The notes under the pieces are model-generated. The model was not told the origin of the DNA, did not search any database, and worked only from the letters and a program-made list of their open reading frames with translations. 64,000 nucleotides of DNA from Galaxea fascicularis. Its lineage: Eukaryota > Cnidaria > Anthozoa > Scleractinia > Euphylliidae. The stretch is from positions 10,734,501-10,798,500 of the forward strand of contig OX419345.1 in assembly GCA_948470475.1 (NCBI GenBank). The letters are read 5' to 3'. The translations under genes and the position numbers were made by a program. Below, one piece after another: positions 448-42,300 of this stretch. The stretch's first letter is position 1. Each line of letters opens with the position of its first letter.

Positions 448-565
448 CTATTCTGTCCAGTAAGGTAGGCCCATCATACCACTTCCTGAGAAGGGGCTCT
501 TTACAGGGCCCTAACAGGTTTTCACCACTGAGACCACTACATGGTACATACACAACGTCAGAGTC
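448..565 (-). CDS. HBS1L: HBS1L exon: end of GTPase domain (G5 region)
   Basis: This 118-nt exon encodes [12 protein letters not shown] followed by [12 protein letters not shown], the strand after G4 and the G5 loop typical of HBS1/eRF3 GTPases. A pyrimidine-rich acceptor ending TTTAG lies at 566-567 and the donor GTAAC at 443-447. Phase 0 in, one base out. It is the last exon visible in the window. Confidence 0.9.
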
Positions 566-3500
566 CTAAACAAGAGAAAAAGTAAAACACGTGACTCCAA
601 TAAGAAAACTACTTCCGGCAATCTACAGACAATCTTGTATTGATTTAGAGAGAGAGAGAGAGGAACATCAAGAATATTCTGCATATAATACGAGCTTATG
701 GAACAATCACCAGATAAGCATCATTACAGTACGTTGCCCAGTATTCGGACTTCACTTAAAACCTGCTATAACTTTCCTTCCTCTGTCGCAAGATTTCTGA
801 AATTTGGCCCTGAGGCAATCCATTTAGTCTTTAATATAAAGATAAAACGTTATTCGTTTTTACGTTCGTATATCTCGTAAAATTTGCATTTCTGTTGAAC
901 TACTCTGTTGCCCAGTATGCGTACAGTGAGCCCAGCTGCAGTATCCGGACACAAACAAATATCAAGGTAATCAAGCGCAACTTTCAGCAGATTAGCGATG
1001 TATAGCCTCCCCTTGCTTTTACAAAGTAGTTCAACTTTCAATTTCGAAAATATACATTGACTTAGTTAATATAATAAATCCCTGTTTTGACTTCCCGTTC
1101 TGGTTACGCACAATGCAGTCACACGAAAGTAATTCGCCTCGACAAATAAAACAAATAAATAAACGTGGAACGTTTCCATAAAGAGTTGTGTAGTATGACA
1201 TTAAATGCATATCCTAAGATAAAATTATAGTTAAAGATGATAAATTAATCTTCTACGAACCGTTTACGCCACCTCTTCAACGATTTTGGAAAGTAAAGTA
1301 AAAACTGTCCGGATACTGGGCATACTAACTTAAAATTTACTGAAAGTTTCCGACCTTCGTTATTTTAGAAAAATTAAATTTCGATATCAATATTCTGACC
1401 AATAGACCTCTTTAGTGTTGTCGTTTCAAATATCACACTTTAAAGGCCTTTGCTCGAACAGCGGTAGTTTCACAACACAGTGAAAAGTGTAAATATTAGC
1501 CTTGCAATTTTCACTCACCCGAACAGAATGGCGTCTTCTGCAGGTGTTTTGTAACCTAAAAGCCCTTTAAAACTTACATTCCAAAGCTGGAATGTTTGAC
1601 TTCTTTTCGGAATACTTCATTTGCCAGAAATTAATAAGCGCGTTGCCGGATACTGGGCAACATACTGTACATATCACATCAAGCATGAGAAGACACCGGT
1701 ATTATATGGATCACATGGTACACGATTGTCATACATTCCCACGAACTTCACTGTGACAGAAAAATATAAAAAAGCCGAAAACATCCTATCATTTAGCAGT
1801 GAAGCGGTTACTTTAATATGTGAATGGAGTCAAAACTGAACACACTTTAAATCCTGCTTGTTTGAGAAAATGCTTGAGCTTTCCAACAACATGATTATAT
1901 CTATCTTCTGACCAGCCAACCTAGTGAAAGAAAACAAATCTGTATTATAATACTCGGTTAACGTGCTTTTAGGGGCCCGTCAATAATTAGAGGTGGGGAG
2001 GGGGGGTGCAAATAGGGGATAGGGTCAGCAAATTTTATGCAAGGATAAAAGGGAGGGCTGCAAAAATGTTTGTGGGTGTACTGACAATTTTTCTCAAGAC
2101 ATAATTGAAGTATCATCAGAAAAACAACCAATGCTATTTGTATTGAAAACAAAATGTTTATTTTATGTTTCTTTGTGATAACAATTATTGTAAAATGAAT
2201 TTGTAAACATCCCTTCGACTTTCATCTGACTCATCATGTGTCCTACAGCTTTAGGGGGTCATAAAAAAACCAAACATGGTATACTCACTACATTGTACGT
2301 GTAAATTGAGATGACACAAGTACAAAGTGCCTGTGATTACACTGCACCAGTTTACACATTGGTTTCTTGTGGTTGTGCTTGTGTCTATGCTTATGCTTGT
2401 ATCGTACGTGTAAACCAGTCCTTAGCTTTATTAAACGCTACCAATAAATTCCCCTTACATGAACTGACTCGGTCCAAAACAGATTTTAAAAATACTCACA
2501 TTATCAAGTTTATTGACTGCCACAATCAACTGTGTTACACCCAGTGACCTCACCAGTAGTGCATGCTCTCGGGTCTGACCCCCAGCTTCATATCCAGACT
2601 CAAACTCACCAGTGCTGGAACCAACCACCAAGATAGCTACATCAGCCTGAAATGAAACAAGTACTGATGTCTAAATGAAAAAAGATCCTGAGGCAACAAC
2701 AACGTACAATAAATTAAAACCAACTATGCTATTCTCAATCATTTGGTTTCTTTACATCTCAAACTTGGAACCAGGAAAAACCAGGAACTAGGAAAAATTT
2801 CTAAAAGCAACTATTATTCAAACTTACGAAGCTCAGCCTAAATATTATTACCCAACAATACGACAACAACACCTAAAATTGTCACTGAAAACTCTATAAT
2901 ACTTCGACAAATAAAGGGTATGTTGAACACAGAGGAAACCTCAGAACTCTACAAAGTCCAGCAACCCATACAAAAGAAGAGGTAATATCACAGTATAGTA
3001 ATCAGCAGGGCTTGAAATCAACGTTTTCATCCATTCGCCAGGTGGAAACAAGAAAGAAAAATCTGGTCACCAAATAAAAAGGTTTGGCCACCAAAACTAG
3101 TCACCAGTGCTAAATTTCTGGTTGCATTGGTGACCAGTGAGTTGCAATTCCGAGCCTTGTAATGAGCACATGTTTAGGGGGTGCCTGACAACACACCTGT
3201 GCTGCTCCAGTGATCATGTTGGGGATGAAATCTTTATGACCTGGAGCATCCATGAGTGTGATGAGCTTGGTTTCTGTCTCAAATCGTGTTAAACCAACAT
3301 CCATGGTAATACCCCTGTTGGTCAAAATTGCACAAAGACAAAGTTGACAAAATGGGAATTTTGAACTGAAAGTAGACTGAGGAAATTCTAGACAAATCTT
3401 AGCCTTCAGCGAAATCTTAAATTATGATTTTTCAATACTATGTTTTCTGAACTAACTTATATTAGTGTGAATGATGTATATGAAATCAAATAAATCAATA

Positions 3501-6500
3501 AAATCAATATATTTTGACGACTTATGAGTTCGAAGTACATGTAATATAGCACCAAAGTCTGAGTGGTTCAGCATTCCTTTTACCATTCAACTCAGAAAGG
3601 GCCACACTTAGCCTTTGATAGATACTTTGTTAACTGAATGCCTGACATTACCAGCTACATTCTGTGTTCCGTTTAGTGCCACTAACCCCAGTCTTTTCTT
3701 TCATCATCATTTTGTTGATAAACTGTCATACACTTCTGCTTGTTACTAAATGATCGAAGTACATGGTGCATAATTGATCTATGGTACTCTTTGGCTTGTT
3801 TTATTGATAAATCCAAATCAGCTGAGTTTTTGCATGTGCATGTGGGGATATAGAAAAAACAGCTGGGAATCGAGTTGCTATAGTGAAGTCAACATGCTGG
3901 TTTTATATCAAAGTAGCTGAGGATAAACCTCAAAATACGAGGGAGAAATCACCAGCCCCTGGCCCTTAATGACAACCCTGATGTGGCTTTTCATATTATA
4001 ATAACATTGTTCTGTTTCATCAGTTTCTGCTTGTTTTTCAATAAACAACATATGCAAAAACTTAGTTTTCTTCAGACAGAAGAACTTCTGATAAGCAACA
4101 AACAAAAGGAGTGGAGTCAAGACATTGCCTGGAAAAAAATGAGTTTTGCAAACCGTTATTTATTGAAAAAGACAAAATTGGCAAAAAGATACAGGACAAT
4201 GTTTTTCTTTGAAATCATAGGCCACATGCAAACATTTAGCTGATTTAGATGAAAAACAAAAAAAAGTAAGCAAGTAAGCAGACTGTGTGGTGACAGTCAG
4301 CTGATAGTCAACAAGCATTTTACCAGACAATTTAAATGATTACAGTCAGATGAAGTATCCACTCCGTAACAAAATTAAAAGAACCACCAGGGCCCTAATA
4401 GCCAATCAAAAGGTTGTGATTTTGACCAACAAAACAAACATTCAAGCCATGGCATACCTTTCTCTTTCTTCACCCGTTTCATCTAGCACCCAAGCATAAG
4501 CAAAAGAAGCTTTACCAGCCTTTTTAGATTCAGTTTCATATGTAACCAGGTCAAGGAAATCAACACTACAGTTTGAGTGTATGATCTGTCTTTTAAAGAA
4601 TAGTTCCTGCTTTTACGCCGGGTACCAGTGAAGCAATTTTGTTATTTTGGTTTCTCTCTTAGTTTTTTTTTTTCTCTTTTCAACTGAAATTTTGAGGTAC
4701 GAAAAGGATATTTATGCATTGATTTTTTGGAGACATCACCAAGACGATATAGCAGATGGCCCATAAGTGTGCTCTTCCCAGCATCCACATGACCTGCAAA
4801 TAAAACATGTAAAGAACATCTTCCAACAGCCTGTTTGATAGAAAAAGTCATTTCCATTTTCATTTGCACTCACATTTGATTCACATTTGATAATTATATT
4901 TAATACTATAATTTACAAATCAACTTCCACAAAATGTTGCATAGACCATGACTTATAATGGAAGGGATAGAGAGTATGTTATGTATAAAATTTGCATTTA
5001 GGCATTGCGTGACTATCTGGAACACTCTTTCGTGTCTAGAAGATTCTCGCGCTATGTTTACATTGTGTCAGCATGAAACAGTAGTTTTTGTCAGGTGCTT
5101 ATGGATGGTGCCTACTTTTGTTAGTGCGCACACATTCTGCGCATCACGTAAGCCATGGTTTAAGCATGCACGCACTGGAGTTGGCATTGATGCAATCAAC
5201 TACACCACCAAGTACACAACTAAAATTAAAGCAAAATTTTCCTACTGTGACCAAATCAATTTTAATGAACCCTTTACTTAAACCAGGAACACCGGAATAG
5301 CAGCATATCGCTAAGCAATAAATGTTAACGTCTTCCACCTGAAAACCTGGTTGTTATCTTTCGGAAATTACACTGAAACCCAGCTGTAATCATGTGCCTG
5401 CAGATGGCGTAGTGTGCGCACAAAAATGCAAATGTCTTACTTACTGGGGAGGTGACAGGAAAAAATGTAACAGGCACCGTAAAAGTTTTCAAAAAAGATC
5501 AATAATTTTAAAAAACACGTGGTTACCCCTACATTTTATGTTGCGAAATGGAAGTGGCAAGCCTTTTCAACTTATGACTAGTTTCTGGTTGTGAGCAAAA
5601 GGAATTTAGACTGTATTTTAGCTGAACCAGAGGAATGCTGTCAGAGACGCTAAAAGCACTTTTGCAACAATTTTGTTGTTAAAAATGTACCAAAATTGAT
5701 TTTAATGTTGCCATTTGCCATATAGTTTAAAGATCTTTTAAAATGTGTTTGCCTTTCTGTACCAGTAAAGGCGAATTCTAAGGAAATCTGTGAGGAAATA
5801 TCCTTTCCCTCTTTTTTCCGAAAAATGCTGATGTCAGCATTTTTGTTGAGATTCAAGGCTAATTATCTCGAAAAACTGCTTGGCTACCCCTATTTTTCTT
5901 TGTGGATTCCAATAGCCCTTGCAAAGATCTACTTTTTCAGCGTGGTCCTAACCTGGAGCAAAAACGTTTGTATTTAGTAGGCACCGTCCTAATGTTGTAA
6001 TGCTAATAATTTTAGCCTTTTTAGATGGTTCTACAATTTTATGTAAAAAGCATATTAGCCGCCAAGCTTGAGGTTCAGTGAGTGAGTAGTGTTTACAAGT
6101 TGTAAAGTTTTGGCAAAAGCCATGTTTATTCAAGTGGTTGTGTGTATATTTGGCAGAGGTCATGTTCATTCATGTGTGACACAGGTTGCAGTGTAACTCA
6201 CAAGCCTTGACTTGTCAGTTGGTGTAGACATTTCTTGAGCAGTATTCACTATGTTATTTTGGAATCAATCTCCTTGCTACTGTTCCAACAACCCTGCATT
6301 CCACTTGGACTACAAACTACATTCCTCTAACAACAATGGACTCATAACAGAGTAGTAAATGTATTAACAACAGCAAGGTATCTTTGAGCAAAACTTTGAG
6401 ACTCTGGATTTCACATAATACTTACTTATGAAAAGTCATTGCCCACCCTGAACAAACTTACCAATGACCACTAAATTGAGAAGAGTTTTCCCTCTCCGGC

Positions 6501-9500
6501 GTTTATAATAGTCTTCATGGGCTTCAGCAAGTAACTACAGCAACATAGATATTGCCGGTTAGTCATCATAAAAAAAATCAAGAAAAAGAAACAAAGGTAA
6601 AGAAATCATATGAGACAAAACCTGTTCTTTGTTTTTTCCAGCCATTTTCTGCTTGCCACTCTCTGCGGGTTTTTGTTCCATTTCGCCCTCAGTTGGCCAT
6701 TCAGGAGAACTAAGGGAAAAAATAAAAATTATTCTAAGGTTTCCGCTGTGTCCAGTTTAATGTGTTTGGAAAAGTGGATCATTGGTACTAACGTTCAGAT
6801 TTAGTTTCTGTACGAAGGAAAAACAGGAAAAAAAACTGTTTGTTTTGTTTCTTTTACCTTTGGATTACCGTATTCTCTGGCTATTATAACCTACAATAGT
6901 GCATTCAAGTAATCTAACATCATTTTTTCTCTGGCATTTGGTCATAACTTGCTAAACAAAAATCACCCTGAAAGTCAACATAAGAGAGTTATGCTCTCAG
7001 CCCTTCAATTATCAGCCTTGTTTCCAAACTCCTTCAATCAAAATTTTACGTATGTTTACCACACTGTAACAGTATGAAGATGCCTGTAACAGGTATTTAG
7101 TGCACCATGTCCTTACCTTTCTCTTGATTTTTTGGTGCTAACTGGAGGAGTTGAGAAACCAATGACAGTCTTCTCTGTCATTGGTGTTACCACAGGAACA
7201 GCTGAGTCTGCTGATGACTCCTTCTTGCCAGCATCACAAGAGACATGACTCACCACTGGATGCTTAAGTTTTACCTGTCGTTCAAGTTCTTTTCTTGAAG
7301 TATGAGAAGGGCCTGAGTCATAAGTTAACACAGTTATTCAAAGGCATTTCTACTGTTGAGCCAAAAAGGTCTCTACCTCCCCAAAACATTTTTATAAAGT
7401 AATTTCTTGCACTCAAAGCATAAAAAAGGGTTAAAAATGGATTTGTTTGGCTCAACCAAACTAAATTAGCCACAACAAAAAATGTAAATGATAAGAAGGG
7501 TTATATCATCTTCATTAGGGTCTCTGGGCAGGGATCCATATTCATCTTTTTTTCTGAGTCGTCAGCCCAGCGAGTAAGCATGATGGCCTACTTGCCCATT
7601 CCAATTTAGGTCGTCCAGACAAAAGTGCAGAATTAAAGAAAGAAGAGTGAATGGCTCACTCTAAAAAAATGCTAGCGGTTAACAACATGAAAACTGAGCC
7701 TGCGATCATTTTGTGGAAAATACTGCACTATCAAAAATGGTGCCCAAACATACGACTTCATTACAGACAAAAAGTTGTATGTTATTCTCCATTATTCTTA
7801 ACATTTTAAGTGGATGAGAAGTACCCAAACACAGGTGAAATGTACATGATAAATTAATAGATTTAATAGAATAGGAATTTGTGGAATATTTTGTAATTGA
7901 GCAAAACCTCACTCGTCCAAAGGACAACTTTTGGGTTACCTCAGTCGTCCGTGCCAGATTGTAGTCGTCTGGGACGACTGGACAACTGTGAATATGGATC
8001 CCTACTAGGGGGATAAAATAGTCCCATGAACAAATGATGGTAACAGATCCCTCCCTGTAACCAAGAGAATAAAATAATGCAGTGAGATTGCACCTTATGA
8101 CCATCAAATGACACTGGTAATCACTCACAATTTTACCAAATTTAACCATCTATTAGAATCAGTTTCTACCAACCAAGTTTGTTGTTAGAAGTTTGTTAGA
8201 AGCTTTATTCAAAACAAAGTGTTGCTAACTACTCCACTTACATCTCAGTGTGACACTCTTAAAGATATCACCTACACAGAACACTGAAAAATATTTTACA
8301 CGTGCCATATTAAAATAATTTATAACTATTACATAGATGTATATACATTTAATATCTTATTCTGTGGCAAAACTGTGAAATGGTTCATTAGACAATTAAT
8401 TCACCATTAATAAGGAAATAAACTTTAAAAAACTACAGTATGTACAACTTGTTTAAGATACAGTAGAGCTATAAAAATTAATAATGAAAGCTCTGTATGC
8501 TAAAATCACATACAATATTGATAGTTCACTGATAAATGCTCTAACTCATGGTTCCTGTGTTATCTAAAAAAAATACAGGTCTTGTACTACTTGAAGACCT
8601 TCACATGTAGAGTGGTAAAGCTAGAGAAAAGCAATTTTCAAAAGTGTTAAAGCATATTTGAATGTTAGCATACAACTGTATGAATTTCGCATACAAAATC
8701 TGAATTTTTCACACTTAAAAACACTGAACAGAAGATTTAAAAAGTTGCTTTATAATGTTCTACCTTTGGTAAGTAACACAGACTGAGAAGATAACAGTGA
8801 TTTCACTGCATACTGCTGCAACTAAATAACCAGTTTTCATTAAACTGTTTTAAGTCAATATTACCGTTTAATGATGTAAACCTTTCAATGAATTACTTCT
8901 TTCTTGAAAAAGCCCCTTTTTGCTTGTCTTTAACAATATCATCAGGTGATGGAGTAGAAAAATCAAAAGCAGTTATACGTAAACAATCTGAATTGTGAAG
9001 TTCATTAACAACTCGTTGCACAACAACTTTAGTGGAATCATTCTCAACAGATAAAGAATAGCAGAGGGCCAAACCAAATAATGAGGGCTTAGCAGTCAAA
9101 CCGTGAGTATCACTCCATCTGCTTGACACCTGTCTTTTTTGTTTTGAAGCAGAGACTTTTTTCTTGACACTGAAATGCTCTGATTTCATTTCTTTCTTCT
9201 CCACTGATAATTCAACTGTGGAAGCTGTACCAGAAGTGGAGTGTTTGTGTTTATGTTGAATGTTTTGGTCATAGTCTTCCTTTCCTGCACTTAAAGTGCT
9301 GGAACTCCCAGGAATATGAACGTTTTTCAAATTCTCAGCCAAATATTTAACATCTTCTGTGTCATCAACCACTTGCTCCATTGGCAATGGCTCAGTATTG
9401 CCAAGCTGCCCAGATGAAGTGAGTGGTAACGAACTCTGTACAGAATGCCCAGTTTGTGACAAACTACTGAGTGGTGTTGATAATGAAGGTTCTTGTCGAG

Positions 9501-12500
9501 GTTCGTATATAGCTGTTGCAAATGGAGTTTGTGATAATCTGCTCAGTGGAGTGGACAAAAGAGTGTGTGAAGACATTGTCTGTAAAAGGGGGCTTTTTGA
9601 TGTAGAATGAGGAATTCCAGTAACCGAGTTTCCTTGCTGAAATGACAACTGTGATAGACTACCAAGGGCCAGTGAGATGGATGATTCCTGAGGTCTGGTT
9701 GTGGGGTGAGCTGAGAGACTACTGAGAGAAACTGAAAGCAAAGGACTATGAAAGGGCTGCAACACATCCAGGGATGGTGATGTAACTGGAGAATCCGACA
9801 ATGTCCCTTCTGACTTTGTCAAACTGCTGAGTGAAGTTGAAAGTAGAGTGTTTTGGGGTGACATTTGTAAGAGATCCATGGGCTGCAACTCACTGAATAA
9901 TGACCCCCCAGATGGTACCATACTGCTACTAGAAGCTGACAGCTTCGTCCTTTGAGATGAAGACTGTGAGAAACCAAGGGACTGTGATGTCCTTGGATGA
10001 CCTGATAGTGACTCTCCTAACTGGGAAAAACTGCTAAGGGGAGCTGACATGAGGCTTTTTTGAGGTGAGGCTTCTAAAGGATCAAGGGACTGTGATGTAA
10101 CTGATTGACATGACAATGAACCCCCTGACAAACTGTTGAGAGGAGTGGACAACAGTGTGTTTTGAGATGAAGCTTGTAGTAAGTCCAAGAAGTCTGTTTT
10201 TCTTGTTTGAGCACATGATGATCCTCCTGACTGTGTTAAACTACTGAGAGGTGCTGAAAGAAGGGTGTTTTGAGGTGAAGCTGGTAACAGATCAAGAGGC
10301 TGTGATACAGATGACTGATGTAGTTGTGAGAAACTGCTAAGAGGAGCTGACAGCAGCTCATGGGCCTGTGACATAGCTGATTGACTTGACATTGAATGCC
10401 CTAATTGTGACAAGCTACTAAGAGGGGCAGACATTAAGGTGTTGTGAGCTGAGGACTGTAACAGATCCAGTGGTTGTGATTGCACTGACTGTCCAGATGA
10501 TGATTCTGTTGCCTGTGATGTAGTATAAAGGGAAGAAAATGTCTGGGTAATGTGAGTTGAGACCTGCAACAGATCTAAAGGATGCGATGCCACAGATTTC
10601 TCCAATACTGGCCCTCCTGACTGTGGGAAACTATCACCTTGTGCAAATGTGTTAACAGATGACTTCTCAGATGCATTTCCTGATGGATGCCCAATAAGAG
10701 ACTTTGATGGCTGTCCTCCTGTTACTTTTAGGTTTTCACCATCTTTACTAGCAGAGTTTACTTTCATGTTGTTTTCATACTGGACAATTTCACTTTGTTC
10801 AATATTGGCAAATAATTGAGTTTTACAAGAAACAAAGCCTTACCTTGTGAGAGCCACACATCATCAGACAAATAGCACATAATGAACATAGGAAAAGAAA
10901 AAGAAAAAGGGCAAAAAATAAGCTTTGACCTTCTTTGGACACACTCAGCTAATAACACAATACTCCTTAACACAAAAAGCCATCTGATGATGGTCATAAC
11001 AAAATCTATTCATCACTGAATTCAAGCTCACCTTCAGTTCCAAATGGATCTGAATTTGCCGTCTTTGAGTCTTGTTTTTCTCCTGGAAACATCACAGACA
11101 AATTAAACTTTGCACACCACCTGTAGTCAGCAATAAAGTTGCCCTGGGATCACATTTGTTCATAAACAGAAATTATAACATACAGTGTATTCCCAGCAGG
11201 AAACAGTCACTTAATTTAACTATTCTTGTTTCTCTGTTTGTTTACATATTTTTCTGCTTGTTTGTTAGAAGGAATTGGGAGAAGACCCTAACATAATGCA
11301 GATCATGTCAATTAAAATTCTCAGAATATAATGAGGATTAATGTCGCAGTTTCCTTGAGCATTTAAATTAGTGGCAGACTATAATAAAACACAAAAGACA
11401 TTGTTTGGTGTTAAGTGGGCAACACCGCTCCACAATCGGCGTGACAAGCAACTTCCATAGCGTGACTAAAGCCTAGACTTATCTCCCTGATGCATAAGAA
11501 GAACCCAGCTAGATCGGACAATTTGTAGGCCGGTAAAAGCCAAATTAACAATATTAAAGCCTAAATCTCCACTGCACTAGTGGAAAAAGTGTAGGCAGTT
11601 AAAACTAGCCCAAACATTATCTCCCCAGCACTACGAACCGACTCCACCGGCACGTGCTGGATTGGACAAGAACAAAGGCAGATAGAGAGTGAAACATAGC
11701 ATAGCATGAAAAACAACAAAGCTTGAGGAAGTCACTGTGAGACTTAACCAAAGTCTGTACTTAGAGGTGAACCCAAGACAACAACAACAACTCCAAAGGG
11801 GAGGGTGGGAATAAATATTAAATGGTAAAGGTGCTCCTTACAGTACCCTTAAGAGCTCAGAGAGTGATACTTTGCACTTTACTAGACCTTTTATACTGAT
11901 TAACGTACCACCGGATACAAGGACTTCGTGCAATGCTGAACACAACATGAATGGGGGTAGTTGTTCCTTATGGCCATACAGAACAAAAGATATAAATGTA
12001 GCACACAGTATTGCAACATGAATAGAGGATCTCTGTTGTATTTGTTAGGGTATAGAAGTCCATTCATGTCTCGTTTGCATTACATACTGTTTATGAATAT
12101 AATGCGACAGATGGAGGGCAGCCCTAGCGAGTCACGCTTCATTTTTCCACTGTGTAGAAAGCAGAACTGATTGATTATTACAATATTGCCAAAATGTTCA
12201 CAGAAGCCCAAAAAAATCAAGCTTTCAAAAAAGGTACATGTATAATGAAAATCATTGACTAATCATTAACTAAATTTAAACATACATGTACATTTCAGAG
12301 TTATCAATAAATCTTGAGCCACATATTGATTTCAGTGACATGAAACTACAACAGTCTAGATCACCTGTAACAACAAGGTGACAAGTGTTACTATTTACAG
12401 TGTACCTTTTAAGACAGCCCTGCAAAAGAATATAGTTATCTAGTCTACCGAAAGTCTGCCCCAGTCAACCCACCAGTAGTTAATAATCTACTACAATAAT

Positions 12501-15500
12501 CATTGTTACCTTGACTAAAAATCTGGTCCAGAGCCCTCTCCACATCATAATTACATTGTATAACAGCTGACACAGCTGTCGGTTCATGCAAGTTCTCTCC
12601 CAAAATGGAGTGAAGCTGATCCAAACAAGAAGACAACTTGGCTGAAATTAAAGAACCCTCCAACAATCATGATGTGTCTAATCATGCTTATAACTGCATT
12701 TCTTATTCTCATTATAACACCTAAATATAGAAGCTTTTGAAAGAACTACGGAAAACGGTATATATACAGCTGTATTCCATGTTTACTTGGTTAAATTGAG
12801 TGATACTAGTAACTTCCTGAGTGATGTTTTCAGATTCTTCTTTACAACAATCTTGCATAGAAAAGACAACTGTCACCCTTGAAGCATTTCTCACATAATT
12901 ACAATGAAAAGATTAGGTCAAACATGTAACTAGCGGTTCATCCAGGCTGAGAACATCGCTTACACTGTACGAGTTCAAACATTTTTTTTTAATGAAAGGT
13001 CTTACATGTACGTGTATTTAAAACACTGAGTATAAGCTACACTTTTTTGCCCATAATTTTGACTCTAAATCAGGGGTGTGGCTTATCTACAGAACAACTT
13101 GGAACTTGGGCTTGCAGTTACCAAACATCCAATAAGAATGTTAACTGCAAATGGCTCAATCCAAGGCAAACTTTTCCATTTTGTTGACATACAAATTTAC
13201 ATGAGTAAGTGAAACAGTTTGATTTCGACTTCAATTTGAAGTTGTTTTTCAGGTAAAAAACAAGTTAACAATGTACCTTCAGTTTAAGATTATGGCTTCT
13301 TTGAGAAGAAAAATAAGGCATCTGTGATTTAATTTTGCTAATGTTATAATTCACTGGAAAGGAAACAACAACTGTATAGTAAAATTTACCTTTCATGTTT
13401 TCAAAATAAAGTTATTGTTTTTTCTGTCAAGGTGCCATACGACCTTCCTTGAATGTCCAAGTTTGGGATGCCATTGATCTATGGGTACTGCTTACACACA
13501 GGCTTCTACAGTACTTATTTCTTTTCTATTAAAACAATAACATAACTGTGGGGTTTTTCATTAACAGTTTCTGATATGTTAGCATACCTTCACTTATGGG
13601 ATCTAATTGAGGTCTCCTGTAGTCCTGGGAACTATTTAGAGGTTCATCCTCATCCTCCTCCTCTTCATCCTCTTCATCCACTCGGCCAAACCTGTCTGCA
13701 ATATATGCTGAGAGGTTTGGGTCCCGGCTATTGCTACGTCTGAACATAAACCGCTCAGCTAAAAAGAGACAATCATACAATAACAATAATAAAATTATTC
13801 TTAATTTAAGAATATATTCACTATTAAGATTCTAACAACTTTGAGTTTTTATTGATTCATTTTTATTTATTTGTAGCATTTAGGAAATACATCCAAGGAG
13901 GAACAACAAGAGGACACAAAGTCCACAAAGGTTGACCTCCAGTGGTCAGACCAGTCAGCACTAGAGGTGATCACAGCCGGGGTTTGTTACGTCCCTAGTG
14001 GTTCTTAAACATCCCACAGAACCAATAATTGTGAAGAGTTGTGAGACAGGACCTCCGGTTTATCATCGCTATCTGAGAAGACTAGGAAGTCTAACCATTT
14101 GCAGGAAGCACTTTCTCCTCAAGTATTTAAAGACCCTTAGTGTTGGTCCTGCCATTCTACCAACTGAGCCAAACGGTCCACGGTTAAATAGTTTCTTTAA
14201 TTCTTTAAACCCCAAGATGAAGATTAAAATTCTCATCTGTTGTCCCTACACATTTCCTATAGAAAGAGTGGAGAGAAGTTGTTAAAATATCAAGCAAAGT
14301 CGTTGTATGTGATCTTGTCCTTGTCCTCATGACCACTCTGATCTATAAGGTGTTGAAATACATGGAGAAATTTGATGTTGATAACTTTTAGGGTCTAAAG
14401 CCTTTTTCCATTTGCCCACCAAAGCTATGGAATCACCTGCCATTACATTTAAGGAACTGTGCCTCTTTTAATATTTTTAAAAGTAACTTGAAGGTGTTTT
14501 TACCCAAGTTCACGTTCTGCTTATGATGCGTTTTTAACTTACTTAGTAATAATTTTAATTGTTAATTTAATTATTACCTTAATTAAGGTTTGTAAAGCGC
14601 CTAAGAACATTTGGCATTATTTAAATTACATTTATTATTATTATCAAAGGCCTAAAAGATAAAGAAACCTAGCAACAGGCATTATAGTTAGAGCAAGACA
14701 AAAGAAGAAAAAAAAACAAGGAATCCCTATGCCCCCTGCTTATAAATGGTATCTTGGATAAGGTATGGAGGCCCTGAGAACATTGTATGTGGCTTCAATG
14801 GAGCTCTAAAAATCAGACCACAATAAAATCTGAGGAAGAGCCTAAGCTACATGTACACCAAGCTGATGTAATCATCTATAAAGTGAAGAACAATAATTAT
14901 CTATTCACTTGTGCTGGAAAAAGTAATGTTTAAGTCAGCTGAAGTTCACGTGTTCCTGGCCATAATAGTAACAACAACTCTGTATATCAGGAATAACACC
15001 TTCAGAGCTCCTCAAGAGGGACATTATCAGCTACCAAAATGGGTTTGTATTGAGTCATGACAGCCAACCCACTTAAATTTAATCATTTCAAAATTAAAGA
15101 CATTATGCAATGGTAGGGTCATTCTTAACAATAGATGCCATTATTATAATGTTAGGGTCCATTGTTTTCACCTCTGATCTACTGTTTTTTGCTACAGTCA
15201 AACTGAAGCTTCAGTGAGGTATGACACAACTCTAGTATAATGATGCATAATGTCATTTATAACACTTTGATGAAGGCAAGATGTGGTCAACGTACATCAA
15301 CACCATATAAGTTTTGCAAAGGTTAATAAAACATCTCAGGTTCATGGCCATGTTTTATGTTTACAACAAAAAATGGCCACTCTCATTGTGATTTCTGCAT
15401 GGAGGCTGGCTTATAGGTAGTAGACAAAGAGTCATTATTCAAAATACAGTTGGAACTGAAGAAAGGATAACTGGTGAATAAAATAATCACCAAAAACATC

Positions 15501-18500
15501 TTGAGATCTTTCTGAAGTCTTCTTGTGGTGAAAGTCAGAGTTGCAGGCAAATGTGTTGTTTACAGGTGTTTATATACATGTATGTTGCCGGCATAAAAAG
15601 AGAACCCCAAGACAACAAAAAATAATTATGGCTGGTTCCTTGAGAGTGGGGATCAAGGGAAGGAGATAGGCAACTTGAAAGCTCACTGGTGGCTAAACAG
15701 TCCAATGCATGAGGTGCAAATGCTTTGGCAATGCAGGCAGGTGAAGGTTTTAACTAGTGAGGTATATGCAGCCACCCTTTATTTACGTTGCCTGCATTTT
15801 TCCTGAACAGCATTGCTCTTTTCAGATTTGGACCTACAGCTTGGTTTCCTAATTACTCAGCATCATTCACCCCATGCAAAGGCTTCCTCCTACCACAATT
15901 CATGTGGAATACCAGCCACAGCAAGCTGAATCTTAAGCTGGTCCTTAAAGTGCCTATAACCCCAAAATATTTTTTTTCGCTAACATGCATCTTTGCACCT
16001 TTTCGAAACGGATTGCAGCACTTTTTGTCCTTTTTTCTCCAAATCTTGACTTTTATAGGCTTTGAAACAGAGCATCATTTGAGTCACAACTGAGTCAGAA
16101 GGGGAGTGGGTCTATTCCTGATTTGACGTCACAAACTGATTTGCATGCATGTTTACAAAGAGTTAATGCAATGCAAATCAGTTTGTGACGTCAAATCAGG
16201 AATAGACCCACTCCCCTTCTGACTCGGTCATGAATCAAATGATGCTCTGTTTCAAAGCCTATAAAAAGTCAAGATTCAGTGAAAAAAGGAAAACAATGCC
16301 ACAACTTGTTTCAAACAGGTGCAAAGACGCATTTTAGCGAAAAAAATATTTTGGGGTTATAGGCACTTTAACCCATTGACTACCAGCTGTTTTTACGTTT
16401 TCAGAGTGATTTTCCACCTATAAATGATCCATAGCATTTCGTGACTCTTTATTTGAAACTACCATGGAAAGTGGTGCTGTCCTAGGGCACTGGAGGCTCA
16501 AGGTTTCTGAAAACGTCATTATGACATAGCTATTTTTCATCCGTGGAGCTACAAGAATGGCCCAAGTTGGGTTTGCTTCCAATTTTTGCTAAGTTTATAG
16601 CCATTTTTCATCTGTAGTGGCTGCCTGATGAGCATCATTAAGCGTGACGGTAGCTAAGAGTCCACTTTCTCAAAGAACCAAGCAAGGTGATGTACTTTGT
16701 TGTCCAATTTGGCTTGGTACTTGACGAACTGGGAATTTGGCCGGTTGGACACTTAGTACCTTTGGGACTCGACAATTGATTAATTTCTCCACCTACTGCC
16801 ACATATTTGGGAATTTGTGAGCACTGAAGATCACCAAAAGCAAGAATTTTTGGCGGTAGGTCAGAGTGGCTGTAGACTTAGTTTATATGTGAAAAAATTG
16901 GGGGAAGGAACAGGCGCTGTCAAAAATTCTCGTTGTTTCCCAGCATGCAATGCGGTTGAGAAGTTGAAAATGGTGGGAAGGTCTGAATGCACTGGAACAA
17001 AAGGCTGTATCTACGCTCGGGAGAAGAATATGAACAAAACAAGTCATTTCTAAGCTAGAACAAGGACTGAATTTTGTTATAATCATTGAAGTTTGGTAAA
17101 AATCGCTACGTTTCTTGCATTTATTGGATATCCAAATTTATTTAAAGGACATTCCATTTCGTGCTGACAACTGACAATTAAGGCAATATTCGTGCAATTG
17201 AGAAAGCTGCAATGTTTTGAAGCGTGGGAGTCTAGTACGGCCAGTTTTGGCTGCCAGGGTAGTCAGTGGGTTAATGATGAGTCCTGTTTAAAACATCATG
17301 TCTAAAGGACAAGGTTTTCAATAATTATTAGCAAAGAGTGTTCTGGAGGGTTAGCAAGAAAACCATTTGATCCTTACCAGTTGTTGGTGAGACAGCCATG
17401 TCATAATCCTCAACTGAATGTCCGTACACATCATCAGACATGTCTGGAATGAGAAAGCCTAGTTTATGGACAGTATATCTTAATTTGTGCAAACTATTTT
17501 AAGCTTCTTGAAAGCCCATTTTGACAGTGATCTTAAGATCATGAGCATCTTAAAAAATACCATTCAAATATTAAGTGCAAGTGTAAATGTATATCCACCT
17601 GGATTTTTAAAAACCAGGTTGCAAAAATGCATACTGACCCTTGTTTATTGTAGTACTGAGGTGTGTCTCCCCCATCTACTTTTCTTTGCTTTTATTTTTA
17701 AGGGGTGGGGGGGGGGGGGGGATATTGCAATTAGCTTTTTAAGAGAAATGTAATGTTAAAAGTTACAATAAGCTATTTTTCCATCACATACACATACAAC
17801 GGGAGTTCATACATACAATGGGAACTGTTGTGTTATTTATTGGCGAGCGTAAAAGATCAAAACGACGCCATTCATTCAAGAACTCAAGTGCCTTTACTCA
17901 AAGTCACGTGACTCGGTACAAAGTACAAACTATAACGATTTCAACATCACAACATCTCCCCCTTAAAAACTACAGGGCATAGCCAAAACTACTAAACATG
18001 AAGGTAATAAAGTTTGATCTAACTTATAACATAAACTGTGTAAACTTAGAGATCGGACTGTTCAGTTCATGAATTTATCCCGCACAGTCACAAGTCCAAT
18101 CTTCTGGGAGCACTGACTACTCGCCCAGATCTAGTTGTGGTTGCACCAGCTGCACAGGCAGCTGCCGGAACATCCAACTTGATCGCCTCTGGAATTTGCT
18201 TGCTCGAATCAGGACTGCTAGGACCTTGCTTGCTCAAATCAGGACTGCTAGGGTACAGCGGAGTAAGGTCCTTCCGGTTCCGTCTGATAGTTCCTCTGGG
18301 GCTGCTAACAATGTATGAACGAGGTGTCTCTGCCTCTTGAGTCACAGTCGCTGGAACTTTCATGTCTCGAATCCAAACCTCGGTCCCCACAGGAATCTTC
18401 TTTTGATCTCTTGCACCATGATGAGAATCAAAGTAAGCCTTTTGCTCTTGCTTTCGAACTTCCTCTTTACCTCGGACTATAGACAAATCAGGCCAACCGG

Positions 18501-21500
18501 GTTTCAGCTCCACCGCAGCAAGTGGAACTCTGGATCGTATCTTTCGACCAAACAGAAGCTCAGCTGGACTGTAACCATTCTCTAATGGTGTTGAGCGATA
18601 GGCAAGCAACGCCTTAGCAGGATCATCCTCCTTCTTCAGGACATTCTTTGCGGTCTGCACCGCACGTTCAGCCATCCCATTTGATTGGGGGTACTTTGGA
18701 CTGCTTGTCACACTTGCAAATCCCCATTCCTTTGCAAATTTGATGAATTCAGCTGAACTATACTGAGGACCATTGTCAGATCTGACAGAGTCTGGAATTC
18801 CATGTCTCGCAAACATAGATTTCAGTGCCTGAATGACATCTTGCGAAGTCTGGGATGATGAAAGCAAGGCCACCTCAATGTATCGGCTGAAGTAATCCAC
18901 GACAAGCAAATAGGTGCGGCCCTTTAGCTGAAGCAAATCTGTTCCAATGATCTGCCATGGCCTGTTTGGAACCACTGAGGGAATAAGGGGTTCTGCACGG
19001 AAAGATCGGTGTTCTGCACATTTGCGGCATCCCTGAACCATATCCTCAATCTGCCTACTAAGGCCTGGCCACCACACAGACATCTTGGCACGGCTGCGAC
19101 ATTTTGTGATGCCCTGATGGCCTTCATGCAAGCGATCAAGAATCTCTATCCTCATGCAGGACGGTATGATGACTCTGGAAGCCTTCAGAAGTAATCCACG
19201 AACTAAGGTAATTTCTCCTCTCTCACTCCAGTACCCTTTTAGTGCCTCCGGAACTCTATCTTTTTCTGGCCAGCCAAGTTGGCAGTAGACTGTAAGTTGT
19301 CGGCACACTTCATCCTCCTCTTGGCGTTCCCTTATCTCTTCCAGATGTCTGTCGCTGGCCGGAATTTCACTCAAAACACTGTGCGCATACAGGGCTATTT
19401 CTTCTTCTTGTAAGCCTGACTGCTGCTCTTGGTTTATCGGAGCTCTTGAGAGGGCATCTGCTGTTGTCAAACTCTTGCCTGGAACGTGTGAGATGGAATA
19501 CTGGAATCTGAGCAGCCTCATTCGTAGACGCTGAATTCTTGGTGGCATCTCATTTAAGTTCTTTGACCCCAGGAGAGGAACTAATGGTTTGTGGTCAGTT
19601 TCAATATGAAATGGCTTACCGATGAGGTAGTCCGATAACCTTTCGCATGCCCATGTCACAGCTAGGGCTTCCTTCTCAACTTGGGCGTACCTCTGTTCTG
19701 TTGGCGTCAATGCCCTGGATATGAATGCAACGGGTTTCCAACCGCCATCCTCTTGGGCTTGGGTGAGAACCGCTCCAAGACCAAACAAGGAAGCATCCGA
19801 TGATACCCTTGTCTCTTTGGCTGGATCATAAAGGGCTAGTGTTGGCACAGAGACTAGGGCCTTCTTTACGGCATTGAATGCTTTCTGCTGAGCCTCAGTC
19901 CAGAGCCATGCATTGTTCTTACTTAGAAGGTCCCTCAGTGGCTTTGTCATGTCCGCCAGGTTAGGAATGTACTTCCCTACTTGATTGACCATGCCCAGGA
20001 ACCGCCTTAATTGTGCAATGTCAGTTGGTTCCCCCATCTGTGCGACAGCTTCCACCTTAGCGGGGTCGATTTGCACTCCATCTTTGCCGATCACATGCCC
20101 CAGAAATTCCACTTTATCTGTTGAGAACTTGCACTTCTCCAGGTTAAGGGTAACATTAGCATCTGCTAACCGCTCCAGTACTGCAATCAACCTCTTATCA
20201 TGCTGCTCTTGGGTCTCTCCAAATACTAAGATGTCATCAACTTGACACTCCACCCCATCGAAACCTTCTAGGATCCTCTGCATCGCTTTCTGGAAGTGCT
20301 CGGGTGCTGAAGAAATACCGAAGGGTAGTCTTGTGAAACAGTACCTTCCCCATGGTGTGATAAAAGTGGTAAACAGCTTTGAATTCTCACTTAACTTCCT
20401 CTGCCAAAATCCACTATTTGCATCCAGCTTAGACATAATCTTTGCACCAGACAGTTTGGCTAGAGTTTGTTCAGTTGTTGGCATTTGGTGGACCTCTCTC
20501 TGAACAGCCTTATTTAACTGGACAAAGTCACCACAAATTCTGACACTGCCATTCCTTTTGGGTACAACAACAATCGGAGAACACCACTGGGTAGGTTGAT
20601 CGACCTGTTCTATCACTCCCATTTGCTCCATTCGCTCGAGCTCCTCCTTCACTTGAGGTAGTAAAGGAATAGGAATACGCCTTGGGGTACACAGATTAAA
20701 TGGAGTGACTGATTCATCCAGCTTGATCTCGTAAACACCATCCATGCATCCTAACCCCCGAAACAAGCTGGGGAATCTCTTCTCATAGTTGCTGTCCTTT
20801 GAGTCAACACCAAAATTCTAGCAATTGTCCCGAGCCGGCTACACGCACTTCTTCCCAACAAGGACTGCTCAAGGCCAGGGACCACATAAATTTCGTCAGC
20901 ACAGCATTGCAGGTTATGCGTAAGGGATGCTGTAAATTTACCTTTGCAGAACAGTGGTACTTTGCATGGGCCATACAATTTCTTATCGGGTGGAAGGAGC
21001 TTTTCCTGAATTGACAAAAGACCAAAAGTCTTTTCTGATATGACAGAAACATCAGCCCCACTGTCAAGCTTGAAACTAACTGGGACACCATTTACCAGGA
21101 TTTCAGCTTTCCACGGATGTGCACGCATGCTGTCACCACTGATCTCTCCAAGAAACACACTGGTGTCTGGATCTTCAGAAAACTGATCCTCGGTTACAAC
21201 TTCTTCAACCTGTGGGGACATGCAAACTCAGGCATAATGACCTTTCTTGGAACATTTATGACAAACAGAATTAAGTGCAGGGCAATTTCCTCTGGAGTGA
21301 TTTGCAGATAATCCACATCGTAAACAGCTACTGGGGTTTGACTTATCTCTAGCACCAACGACACCTCCACTTTTCTTTGGTGGAAACTTCTGTAACTTTG
21401 CTCTGAATTTGGCTCCAATCTCATCGATTTCGGTGGATGTCGACCGCTGACCACTCCTAATGACTTCTTGTTGTTTCTTGACTGACTCGCTTTCCCTGGC

Positions 21501-36300: not shown

Positions 36301-39300
36301 TAGGCCGCTAACCCGGAGGGGTTGGACAAGAGCACGCATGGACTAAATCACTGCTCGCTTGTTGTTCGCCGCTTATTGGCGACTCTCCTTTTACCATATT
36401 ATGTGAGGCCCTGTTAGGGGTTTTAGGGATAAGGGATAACTGGCAAAATAATTTTAGGGATAAGGGATAACTTACTAAATAATTTTAGAGATAAAGATAG
36501 TTTTAGGGATAATAATAATAGTAATAGCTTTGATTTCTCAATTGTCACACGTTTGGTCACTTTTGCCAACGATTTGCTTTACTGTCGACTGGTAAGTGCG
36601 AAGAGTAACGGGTCATTTATCAGTCCAAATTCAAGCAAGATGGGTCAGATGTCAAATTCCAAAGATAAGTAGTTTTGGGGATAACAATCTCGGTAATTTT
36701 AGGGATAAAAGATAACTGCACCCGGAATTTTAGGGATACGTGGATGTCTAACCCCCCCCCCCCCCTAACAGGGCCTCTTATGTTGCTGACATTTGAAACT
36801 GCTTTTAGAAAGTTCAGTGCTAGTTATCACGGTCGTTTCTGTTACCATCGTGGACTCCATAAGCTTTTTTTTTTCTCGGAGGATAGGTAAACCAATAATT
36901 TGACGCTGGAATTTGATTCTTTAATCTTGCAGGGTTCATAACAAGAAGAAATTTCCTGGAGGTTCTGCAAATGATCCTTCAGCAACAGGTATGCATCAAA
37001 TGTTCATAGCAAACGAGGAGGGGATGGGGGAGCGAAGGCTGCCACGAAGGGTAACCCGGGGAAATTAGGCGAATTCATCTTTTCTTTTAAATGTCGGTCG
37101 GTAGGGGAAAAAACGGAATGGGGTGGCTATACAAAGGCTAATTCTTTAGAGTAACAGTAAAGGAACAGGGATTGATCGGGGACTCGCTGTTGCAACAAAA
37201 CGCGTTCAATCGGAGTCTCAGCTTAACGCTGGTGTCCCTATAGCCTGTCTCAAAGAATCAGATTGTTTCAAAGTTCCTATATGCACAGTTCTAAATAAAC
37301 TTGAGTGATGTGACAGTTTCGGTTGCTGCTGTTACTTCAGCCGCAATTCGGCAGTCATCTCATTATTAGTTGTATTTCCGCAAGTCTCAGTTTCTGTAAC
37401 TTCGTAGTCTTTCATTTGTGAATGTTTTAGTTCTTATCTTTCAACAGGGAAAACAACCGAGGTAGAGACTTTGAAAAGCAAAGTCAAAGATCTTGAGCAA
37501 GAAAACAACAAATTGAAAGAGAAAATCCAACCCATGGAACACAGGCTGGCAGTAGTACCACTCTTAGAGAAAGAAAAGCTTCATTTGCAAAAACAGTTCA
37601 ACGAAATTATGCAAGAAAACGAAAAATTAAAAAGTGAACTGGAATCTATTAATTTGTCCACGAAAAAGCAAAATGAAGAAAGACTAGAACTTCAAGCCAA
37701 ACACGATAAACTGACAGAAGATCTGGAAAATAGTCAAGAAGTGGTTAAGGACCTCAAACACAAAAACCTTTTGCTGGAGGAGGTAAAGTCTACCCTGGAA
37801 CGGGAAAATGAAGTAAAAGAGGTAGCAATGGAAAGGTACCTTGCCAATATCGAAAATCTGACCAGTTCAAACACAGCATTGTTGCTGCAGGACGGTCGAT
37901 CAAGGAACAAGATTTCAATACTTTTGGAAGGTTTACAGTCGTTTAAAGCCTGCGTTGTAAAGTTAAAAGAGGAAAACAATGGCTTACATTTGCAAATTAT
38001 TGAAAATGGCAATGAGCTTGCTCGGACAATGAAAAATTGCGTTAGTGGTCTGGGAAAAGTTCTTGATGGGCTGGAAACAGAGAGAAGCGGCAAACTTGAC
38101 CAGGAAGTACAAGTGTTTATTGATACGGAAAAGCTTGAAAAAGATACACAGTGTGGTGATTTTCAATCAGTAGAATTGATTTTATTGCAGCTTGAAGAAA
38201 GTAAACAGTCAGTCGAGTGTTTGAAAAACAGGATTAATGAACTAGAAAGTAGGACGGTGGCAAATGAGGAGCAAGGGGAGAATGTGGACAGTGAATTGTT
38301 CGCGACAACAGTTGAAACCACTTCAGACCCACAAAGAACCGTACAAGAGGTCAATGAAGGAGACAGAACCGGTAACTGTACCGGATGTAAGAGCCTTCAA
38401 ATGAAAATGGAGGCGCTATCAACCGACTTGGACACAGTCAAGGCTTCTTTGCAGAAATCAGAAAGCGAAAGGGATGACGCTATTGAAGAAAGGAATGAGC
38501 TGAGACGCGAGGCCAAATATTTGAAGTATGTGCTTTCCTATCGAGAGGACGTACAAAGTCTGCAAGCGAACAACCAACAGTGCAAAGAACTGGAAAGAAT
38601 GGGCACGAACCTCGTGGAAGCAGAGAAAAAAGTATTGGATTTGGAAGATGAAGTTGGAAGACTTCAAGAAGAAAAACAAACTTTGCTACTGAGCATTTTA
38701 AACCTGTACGCTGGGCATGAAGTGGAAGATGTTAAAGAAGAGGACGAGGAAGAGGCAGAACACGAAGTTGAGGGCGAAACTAAAGATGTAAACACAGACA
38801 AAGAGGATAAAGATAATTCCAGCGAAGTGTTTGCGAAGTCGCCTTCAGTTGGTGTAAGCCCTCGAACTCCCGAGTCTTCGGCTCGGAGGGAACAACTGAA
38901 ATTCCGATTTCAGTTATCTTTGTCAGAGTCCGAATACAGTTACAGTTCCGATCGAACAGAAGGAGAGGAAGAAAGTGACAGTGAAGATGTCAACTCACCA
39001 ACCACGGTAAACGTGCAGGCCATTAAAACTGAAAACAAGCAATTGAAAACAAATTTGTTTGAAGCCAACGAGGAAAAGGAAGAGCTTTTATCCAGTCTGG
39101 ATAAGCTATGTGAAGAGTATGACTCGCTTAAGGAAAGCCATGACAAACTAGAGGAAGAGCATAATCTAATGTCAGATAGAGCCACGAAAGAAAAGATCGC
39201 TCATCAAACTCGGCTTCGCCAGGTTGAAATGGAAAGAGAAAACATGCGGGACACTTTGAGGCAAGTTCAAGACGAGAAACTTGCACTTTTGAAATGCCTT

Positions 39301-42300
39301 GAAATGAAGAACTCTGACGCACAACCGCTGTCTCCACTGTCGGATACTGAACTAAGCAAAATCGTTGCGTGTGCTCAGTCTCTTACACAGGAAGAAAGCA
39401 AATCAAACGAATCAACTCCAGTGCAGAACCTAGAGATGGATAAAATTATTGCGCAAGCGCAGTCGTTTACAGAGAACGAAAACAAATCGGACGAACAAAC
39501 TTCAATGTCAAACGTAGAATTGGACAAAATCATCGCGCGCGCACAATCTTTTACGCGAGAAAAAAGTGAGTCCAGCAAACCAAGTTCAGTGCCGAATCAG
39601 GAATTGGACACGATTATCGCACGAACCCAGTCGTTAACCAGAGAAGAAAACAAGTCGAGCGAACCAACATCGAATGAGGAAGATTCTGATGCGTCACTGT
39701 CATCTGAGACGGAGGATGACGAAAAGGCCTATAATAAACACATCCTTCAAAAGACGCCTAACAATGAAGAGGTTTCTGATACCCAGACCACACCCACCAC
39801 CCCTGAGGATAGAGACCTGGCTGGTATAGTGGCTTCTATTGAAAACGACCTGAGCAAACTCAAGGAGAGGCTTTACAGAAGAGATACACTGGGTAAGAAA
39901 ATGCCAGACACTTTTGTTGCTTTCGTTTTAAACCTCTGAACATAAATGCTTAAATAGACGTAAATTCTTTGTCGCGCTATTAAAAAAATTAGGGACAGTT
40001 TTGGCTACTCGGAAAAACAGAGGAAATATTACTCAGGCCAGACCAGGAGCCCGATGGGCTCCTGGGCCAGACGGCCAGACATATTTAGGATATAATGATT
40101 TCTGAGAGCGCCTGGCTCGCTTTAGCCGACCTTTTGTTCGGGAAAAGCAGTGAAGGCGGGTGACACCAGTTTCCACCATCTTTCCAGTCTAATTGCTTGA
40201 TGGACCAATACTAATACTCTGTCGGGTTGGTCAGTCGATAGCATGTTCATAGTGGTATCAAACAAACGCCCGATCAGTATAGGTTATCGCATGGGGCCGA
40301 GTAAAATTAAGGATTAATCATCGCTTGCGTTTTCAGAATTTCGGCAACTTCTGAAAAAAGTGATGATTAATCCTTAATTTTACGAGGAAACATGCGATTA
40401 CTTGTTTATCACTAAAAGGGCAAAATTTAGTAGGGAATAGTGCATGCGGTTTACTCATTTCTCATTGGAAGCCCGCTTAAAGTGCCTATGAAGTAAAAAA
40501 TGTATGTTTGCTCATTTGAAAGGCCTTTACAAGTGAATAAGAATGGCCCTTTCTTTTTCGAAAGATCTTCTTTCATTCCCGAGAAATTCAAGTTTTTGCT
40601 TAAAAATTGATGACACCACAAATGGTTTAAGGAAGAATATACATCACAAATCAAGAATATCTCTGGAAATATTTGACTGATGCAATTCAAACTTGGCACC
40701 AGTAATGTACATCACGTAAGATACAAAATGACACCCACTGTGCTGTTACCATGGCAACAGTTCGGCTTCCCAGTTTATTTCATGTGAGATTCACTTTCCC
40801 AGTTTTTGTGTTAATCAAGCATTGTTCAGCTAGTCAGTAGACGTAAAGTAATCGGGGTATCACACCTGTTTTAAGTATTACCATCTGACACTCCTCATCT
40901 GGTCAAAATATGGGGATTTATTATATGGAGGAGTGTTTTACTGGAAACTAAACCACTCGTAGATTCCATACGCCACTTCATCCGGGACCCGAGTGGCGTA
41001 TTCCGTATGTCTCCTTTGTGAGTGTCGTATCGTTCAATGACGTCACGATTCCCGCCTTTTGCTTTTCAGGGCTTTTGTTGAATTGGTTTCTCACGTCGCG
41101 TTTGTTTAGTCTCCATATAATAAAAAGAACATTACACGTTGGCTCGAAGATATGAATTTTATGTTCTTGCCACTCGAACATAAAATTCATATCTTCTCGC
41201 CACCGTGTAATTTCCTCTATATAGGATTCTTGGCAAACAAGCCCTGCAGCCTAGGCTGTTGCCATGGCAACATCATCGGGGGTATCATTTTTTATCCTAC
41301 CTGACGTCACTCAAATATTTCCAGAGATATTCTTGATTTTGTGATGTCATTAATTTTTGAGCAAAAACTTGAATATCTCGGGAATAAAAGATTTTTCAAA
41401 AAGGAATGTACCATTCTTATTCACTTTTAACGACCTTTTAAATTAGCAAACTTAATTTTTTACTTCGTAAGCACTTTCATGCAAATACAAATTTCAATCA
41501 AATCTAACCAACCAATCGATTCAATGGTCAATGGTCAAAAAACACCTGTTTCAAATGAATCACGTTGGCCATTGTAAAGTTTGTTTGAACTCATTTACAA
41601 AAACATAGTAGTCGGCTCTCTTGACTACAAAAAATGCCCTTTATTAAGAAAAAAATGCCCTCTGTTTCAGCCAATCAGCGTTCCGGCAGTAATTTTTTTC
41701 CTTATTGATAAGTTGTAAAATCAGTGGGAATGGATTCATAGCCATCTTAATTAGAACCCAACCCCGCCATTTAACACGACCCGTACCTCGGACCACGAGC
41801 TCTGAAAACCATATACAAGTTTGTGGCAGGAATGAAAACAGTCCTCCGGTAACTTTCTTCGCATTGTACCAGCTATTAGGACCATATTTGTTAATTCTCG
41901 ACGACGATCACTTTTAAACGTTGGTTTGCGGCATGGGTGGGAATGGTTTTGTGAAATTGCCCAAAATGAGGTCAAAACCATACACTACAGCTTTTGGTTA
42001 AAAAATACACATAAAACGATCGTCGTAAAGGTGATACATTTCTAGACATTGTTCTCCCCAGCATGTCGTGAAACCAAACTTCAAATGATTCGTCTGGTAC
42101 ATACATACATACATACATACATACATACATCACCTTTATTTCACCTCGGATTTACAAGAGTAGCTGTATAGTTAATTTCTCCGAGAAAGAAAAAGAGGAA
42201 AAAAAATAAAATCGTATATTTTTTACAGTACATTAAACTACTATTTAAATAAGTAACAATTGCATTGATGTTCGAAAGAAATTTGGCATATTTTAGCTCT

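Follow-up and report, generated by a model that had tools for sequence, protein, structure and literature searches.

Our analysis of a 64,000-nucleotide (nt) stretch of the stony coral Galaxea fascicularis (contig OX419345.1, 10,734,501 to 10,798,500 of the forward strand, assembly GCA_948470475.1; hereafter the window) indicates that its HBS1L gene, on the minus strand, is very probably a two-product gene, in which shared N-terminal exons would be joined either to the exons of the GTPase HBS1L or to one long terminal exon encoding SKI7. Judged by its sequence, this long exon genuinely belongs to SKI7. The sequence shows the gene structure, the two open splice routes, an exon C-terminus homologous to that of human SKI7, and an array of short repeated units in the exon that is spread among related proteins. 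Moreover, the array unit suggestively resembles a single motif, H1, of mammalian SKI7.

Results

The exon map was obtained by reading the minus strand, by tblastn with coral proteins and by explicit joining of exons. The five shared exons sum to 43 + 66 + 171 + 132 + 51 = 463 nt; exon 1 opens with ATG, every donor is GT, and the acceptors are AG from exon 2 on. The first-pass annotation had claimed that both routes from the exon at 11032-11082 keep the frame, and joins made explicitly to 10838 and to 7312 do stay open. The join to 10838 yields 802 residues and a stop, the 803 codons that 463 + 1946 nt had been said to give; this SKI7 product lacks the GTPase and ends at its own stop (8893). 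The join to 7312 is open up to the window edge, over 483 residues that contain the Pfam families HBS1_N (E 3e-12) and GTP_EFTU (E 6e-51) and whose best solved relative is Hbs1l (5lzw_jj, E 1e-133), so that the gene's annotation as HBS1L is borne out by Pfam and by structure match. The GTPase exons go on past the window edge in the same genome (L002), and the coral gene model P0018, discussed below, was matched to its residue 867 of 917. SKI7 is encoded inside the HBS1L gene: HBS1_N and GTPase exons flank its exon, and the phases are compatible.

The SKI7 exon follows an acceptor AG at 10840-10839 and closes with TAA at 8895-8893, reproducing the coordinates and the stop of the 1946-nt open exon annotated earlier between N-terminal and GTPase exons. 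Its frame runs for 648 codons without a stop. When the exon was resampled 2000 times by a Markov model, the longest run over six frames averaged 120 codons and never exceeded 290, and a chance open frame is therefore rejected; the remaining five frames hold 17-93 stops. The exon is single-copy, with one match at E ≤ 0.001 in its own 416.6 Mb genome (7 candidates scored), and a Pfam search of it found no family. Its AlphaFold model has a mean predicted local distance difference test score (pLDDT) of 44.5 and a predicted template modelling score of 0.23; helices are confined to the C-terminal end (residues 587-592, 601-616, 618-621 and 632-644), where a block from residue 601 onward reaches pLDDT 67-78. 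At 10838-10845 there is a tandem acceptor, with an extra AG five bases ahead of the SKI7 acceptor (CACAAG/GTAAG/G); the extra AG, if used, would give a frameshifted product of 180 residues. The same stretch also fits a 5' splice-site consensus.

The SKI7 identity is carried by the C-terminal end. The last ~70 residues of the exon, as a single sequence in phmmer, match the solved human SKI7 chain 9g8m_E at E 2.8e-4, and a coral profile matches the same chain at E 6e-11. When coral and 21 mammalian-type SKI7 proteins are compared profile to profile, the C-terminus alone aligns, over 71 columns, at E 1e-13, 98% probability and 45% identity. A refutation test set beforehand had asked for similarity of the exon's C-terminus to an HBS1L short isoform, and the similarity to human SKI7 is clear. 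Within this module, nine of the ten positions of the SKI7-like motif fit, by eye, the metazoan consensus A+PShFAahL, and its A, P and F are invariant among 23 aligned proteins. The Patch-4-like motif together with the C-terminal helix fits FDFxxxSPDDIV+; the wider metazoan Patch-4-like consensus fits in part only, the P ahead of FDF being replaced by A in the window protein. In human SKI7 these C-terminal regions bind the RRP43-MTR3 cleft, CSL4 and SKI2 RecA1 (PMC11540850), and by transfer from the human structures we infer that coral SKI7 would make the corresponding exosome and SKI2 contacts.

A protein search with the SKI7 exon returned 24 proteins at E ≤ 10 among 7986 scored, including a near twin, P0001, of 96% identity. 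With the coral C-terminus as query, 31 candidates gave two matches, one of them the query itself, and this second search added P0025, for 25 related proteins in all. Four of these are named (from Porites harrisoni, P. evermanni, Montipora capricornis and Desmophyllum pertusum), and since all four are stony corals a cnidarian origin is supported, in keeping with the cnidarian type proposed for the gene. In P0012 (Porites harrisoni, 797 residues) and P0013 (Montipora capricornis isoform X1, 705 residues) the same N-terminus is joined to the SKI7 exon at the same glycine as in our prediction, and this shared joint supports the predicted junction. The 23 aligned proteins end at, or at most two residues from, the same place. 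P0018 (Porites evermanni, 917 residues) combines the N-terminus, part of the SKI7 exon and the GTPase exons in one model; it leaves the exon in mid-array, omitting the exosome-binding end, and is most likely a gene-prediction artefact, seemingly steered round a stop.

The middle of the SKI7 exon is an array whose units end in LLSxPLSSLSQ. A strict pattern finds nine copies in the window exon against 0.04 in shuffles, and 3-10 copies in the 25 other proteins, where shuffle means are 0.01-0.07; the copy at 9684-9649 is found by the profile and fails the strict pattern. Units are spaced 25-36 residues apart, or about double that, in the window, and 36 is the commonest spacing in relatives such as P0003 and P0008. 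A tandem repeat at the DNA level was sought with Tandem Repeats Finder (score 30), whose sole row, 10893-10909, lies outside the exon; the array therefore looks old. The ten profile-found copies differ by 0.71 at synonymous sites (pS) and by 0.25 at replacement sites (pN), the latter figure being biased, since copies chosen by motif make a low replacement rate partly a selection effect. At a given position in the unit, serines keep to one codon class (AGY at +2 in 9/9 serines, TCN at -3 in 10/10), as expected from duplication of one unit. The copies thus probably share a single ancestral unit, from which they separated long ago. In several coral units LDLL and LSSL are spaced by 20 residues; in the mammalian-type protein P0026 the L435-L454 spacing is 19.

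A link of the array to mammals was sought by scanning a nine-column unit profile, for which 21 coral-type proteins supplied 101 unique units, over the inserts of mammalian-type SKI7, taken as the 120 SKI7 proteins among the matches listed, of 345 found, every named one being a mammal. The same site ranks first in all 120 of these listed proteins. It reads LTGSLSSLA in 114, differs in the last residue in five, and reads LTESLSSLA in P0125. It scores at least 12.9 bits (median 16.9; in P0026 it scores 16.9 and the site ranked second 6.7), the runner-up having a median of 6.7, and its shuffle P has a median of 0.01 (range 0-0.12). Across 21 aligned mammalian-type proteins, no invariant run is longer than its 8 columns, and no other 9-mer within residues 145-540 is as well conserved. 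In human SKI7, residues 430-465 are the segment modelled on SKI3, comprising helices H1 and H2 (PMC11540850); LTGSLSSLA falls within that range, in the numbering of the 632-residue protein, and from the range we infer that it is H1. Apart from H1 and a portion of H2, the mammalian insert has another invariant run, IDLSVLI (residues 490-496 of P0026), for which a search of 11 coral-type proteins gave no convincing counterpart (0/11 below P 0.13); nor does mammalian PLSQL have a convincing match in them (1/11 at P 0.03). A looser SLSxL-type pattern occurs 9 times in P0026 against 2.5 expected (0/1000 shuffles), and was dropped with its enrichment only marginal in P0113 (P 0.08) and P0142 (P 0.05).

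The HBS1L route holds one AT-AC intron, 4711-4542, found in that route only. By consensus this intron is of the U12 type. The minor spliceosome would then be required for one product and not for the other. The open-licence literature yielded no paper tying HBS1L to the minor spliceosome, the one U12-type match being off topic by title.

Table 1. Mapped features of the HBS1L/SKI7 gene (window positions, position 1 being the first letter of the window).
Feature	Position	Strand	Evidence
Shared exon 1, start codon, 43 nt	23269..23311	-	tblastn with coral models, GT donor
Shared exon 2, 66 nt	17378..17443	-	tblastn, AG/GT borders
Shared exon 3, acidic stretch and start of HBS1_N, 171 nt	13588..13758	-	tblastn, AG/GT borders
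Shared exon 4, HBS1_N / UBA-like domain, 132 nt	12510..12641	-	tblastn, borders, Pfam PF08938 on joined protein
Shared exon 5, 51 nt, donor for both routes	11032..11082	-	AG/GT borders, both routes in frame
SKI7-specific terminal exon, 1946 nt	8893..10838	-	open frame, homologues, human SKI7 match, single copy in own genome
Array of LLSxPLSSLSQ units, 12 codons each	9454..10440	-	profile scan (ten copies), strict pattern (nine)
Unit copies of the array	10440-10405, 10359-10324, 10266-10231, 10158-10123, 10056-10021, 9849-9814, 9744-9709, 9684-9649, 9564-9529, 9489-9454	-	
SKI7-like motif, 10 residues; RRP43-cleft helix in human SKI7	9064..9093	-	alignment, hhalign to mammals, PMC6143672 consensus
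Patch-4-like motif, 16 residues; CSL4 contact in human SKI7	8929..8976	-	sequence match and profile alignment
C-terminal helix, 18 residues; SKI2 RecA1 contact in human SKI7	8896..8949	-	human structure and predicted helix, exon residues 632-644
AATAAA, candidate polyadenylation signal, 683 nt past SKI7 stop	8204..8209	-	weaker ATTAAA/TATAAA sites nearby
First HBS1L-specific exon, alternative to SKI7 exon	7117..7312	-	in-frame join to shared exon 5
HBS1L GTPase exons 6709-6622, 6534-6462, 4793-4712, 4541-4458, 3314-3197, 2646-2500, 1920-1846, 565-448; next begins at 7	448..6709	-	tblastn, joining, Pfam, PDB match
AT-AC intron, HBS1L route (ATATCCTTTT ... TTCCTTGAC ... GGTTAC)	4542..4711	-	intron sequence, U12-type consensus

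Elsewhere in the window, intron 1 contains retroelement-like gag and pol open frames at 18088-22010, by eye and in the gene's own orientation; a Pfam search of the gag-like frame gave nothing. Past the SKI7 exon, the next intron holds an element at 7530-8003 that resembles a miniature inverted-repeat transposable element, with perfect 15-bp inverted repeats at 7530-7544 and 7989-8003. On the plus strand, 37408-39939 is an open frame of 843 residues with a coiled-coil look and no Pfam family.

Discussion

How would one gene make both proteins? The choice would lie in the exon that follows the fifth, the donor after 11032 being common to both routes. Joined to 7312 across an intron of 3719 nt, it would give the ribosome-rescue GTPase HBS1L; joined to 10838 across one of 193 nt, it would give SKI7, in which the shared N-terminus carries an adaptor in place of the GTPase. 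Most likely the choice between the near and the far acceptor sets the SKI7:HBS1L ratio. SKI7 would end at the stop within its specific exon, and its transcript would probably be polyadenylated at a separate site. We expect its last ~70 residues to lie along the exosome, in the RRP43 cleft and then on CSL4, with the final helix reaching SKI2, while the disordered part ahead of this module would dock the SKI complex via SKI3. SKI7 would in this way bridge the exosome and the SKI complex, and the shared N-terminus might reach the 40S subunit, as in human. If the coral array is equal to mammalian H1 (LTGSLSSLA), it would give several weak docking points.

The dual output that the first-pass annotation proposed is supported, with the 11032-to-10838 junction predicted from the sequence together with the gene models of relatives; the named coral models behind that junction may be computational. 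Could splicing instead continue past the long exon, so that the adaptor sits inside an HBS1 protein as it does in plants? P0018, which runs from the N-terminus through part of the exon into the GTPase exons, speaks for this. However, P0018 exits in mid-array, loses the exosome-binding end and has the look of a prediction steered round the stop, while P0012 and P0013 finish at the exon's stop and the 23 aligned proteins share their end to within two residues, so we consider onward splicing very unlikely. A reading of the long exon as dead or unspliced sequence, a retained intron without a product, is hardly credible given the 648 open codons, homologues with invariant C-terminal residues, and joined gene models in relatives.

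The role of the array is much less firm than the two-product gene. The correspondence of its unit to the single H1 motif of mammalian SKI7 is suggestive, and docking of SKI3 by the array is only suggested. Several results weigh against the correspondence. Reversed mammalian inserts score 9.0 bits on average and up to 14.9, and in one mammalian-type protein the second-best site reaches 15.0, the maximum among the runners-up; moreover, the 120 proteins represent one lineage, so the shuffle P counts once. With a 14-column profile, two of three mammals have an H1 site above the 95% shuffle limit, and the site of P0026 lies below it. In the reverse direction, a search with the mammalian H1 peptide is significant in none of 11 coral-type proteins (P 0.06-0.77), and a search of the same 11 for the human SKI3 anchor H2 (L454, I458) gives two weak matches (P 0.04 and 0.06), with P 0.44 for the window protein; identity of the coral unit with H2 is not supported by the motif searches.

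Alternatively, the array may be a disordered linker, prone to repeats, whose gains and losses of units have no functional meaning, so that the C-terminal module alone would matter, and we give this account serious weight at somewhat less than an even chance. Like the failed reverse search, the low pLDDT throughout the array, the wide variation in copy number and the exon middle left unaligned to mammals in the profile-profile comparison all favour it, and in human pull-downs the extra helix of SKI7 made no substantial contribution to SKI3 binding (PMC11540850). On the other hand, an idle linker sits poorly with copies that are far apart at synonymous sites and close at replacement sites (a comparison biased by the choice of motif), with the absence of any remaining DNA-level tandem repeat in the exon, and with a matching mammalian site that is the best-conserved 9-mer of its insert. 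A functional array could be taken further: the H1 motif, LSxxLSSLS, would be an ancient SKI7 element of animals that predates the divergence of cnidarians from mammals and was amplified in corals to 3-10 copies, with the result that a single coral SKI7 would engage SKI3, or some other partner, at numerous points, or would bridge several SKI complexes on collided ribosomes. We hold this extended proposal to be possible and rather doubtful.

SKI7 genes of this kind, and their presence in cnidarians, are already in print, which limits what is novel here: Brunkard and Baker reported SKI7-like orthologues in cnidarians and other invertebrates in 2018 (PMC6143672), and a zebrafish paper reported a SKI7 orthologue in Stylophora pistillata (PMC7924785). 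These proteins very probably belong to the same orthologue group as the SKI7 of the window. The main-text passages of the two papers covered by our comparison do not describe a cnidarian gene structure, the repeat array or the link to H1. The window adds the exon-level structure of a coral HBS1L/SKI7 gene; what looks new is that a short motif, seemingly kept once in mammals, recurs many times in coral SKI7. Among the open-licence papers listed on SKI7 and HBS1L, no title or abstract opening mentions the array, and in the open-licence literature we found no paper joining SKI7, SKI3 and a short linear motif.

The closest known system is the vertebrate HBS1L short isoform, or SKI7 (HBS1LV3, human HBS1L isoform 3; zebrafish Ski7 exon 5). 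The coral insert differs from it in being a repeat array, with nine strict units where the strict pattern occurs once in 119 of the 120 listed mammalian-type proteins and is absent from the other, and in having no clear H2, the SKI3 anchor, in 11 coral-type proteins. The plant HBS1/SKI7 gene is likewise one locus with two outputs by splicing and the same two exosome motifs, whereas Arabidopsis SKI7 keeps its GTPase and is without a long insert. Budding yeast Ski7 shares the role of exosome-SKI adaptor but is a separate, paralogous gene with a GTPase-like end.

Thus, exon by exon, a stony coral appears able to make HBS1L and SKI7 from one gene, which is consistent with a splicing choice between ribosome rescue and 3'-5' decay that predates the cnidarian-bilaterian split. 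If the AT-AC intron is spliced as read, HBS1L alone of the two would rely on the minor spliceosome. The long insert of human SKI7 is one whose function was called unknown in PMC6143672, and its best-conserved mammalian 9-mer sits at the extra helix that was dispensable in the binding assay. If the correspondence with the coral unit holds, the near-invariance of H1 in mammals would mark a function outside what the human pull-downs tested, and corals, as a natural amplification of what looks like the H1 motif, would make its role testable.

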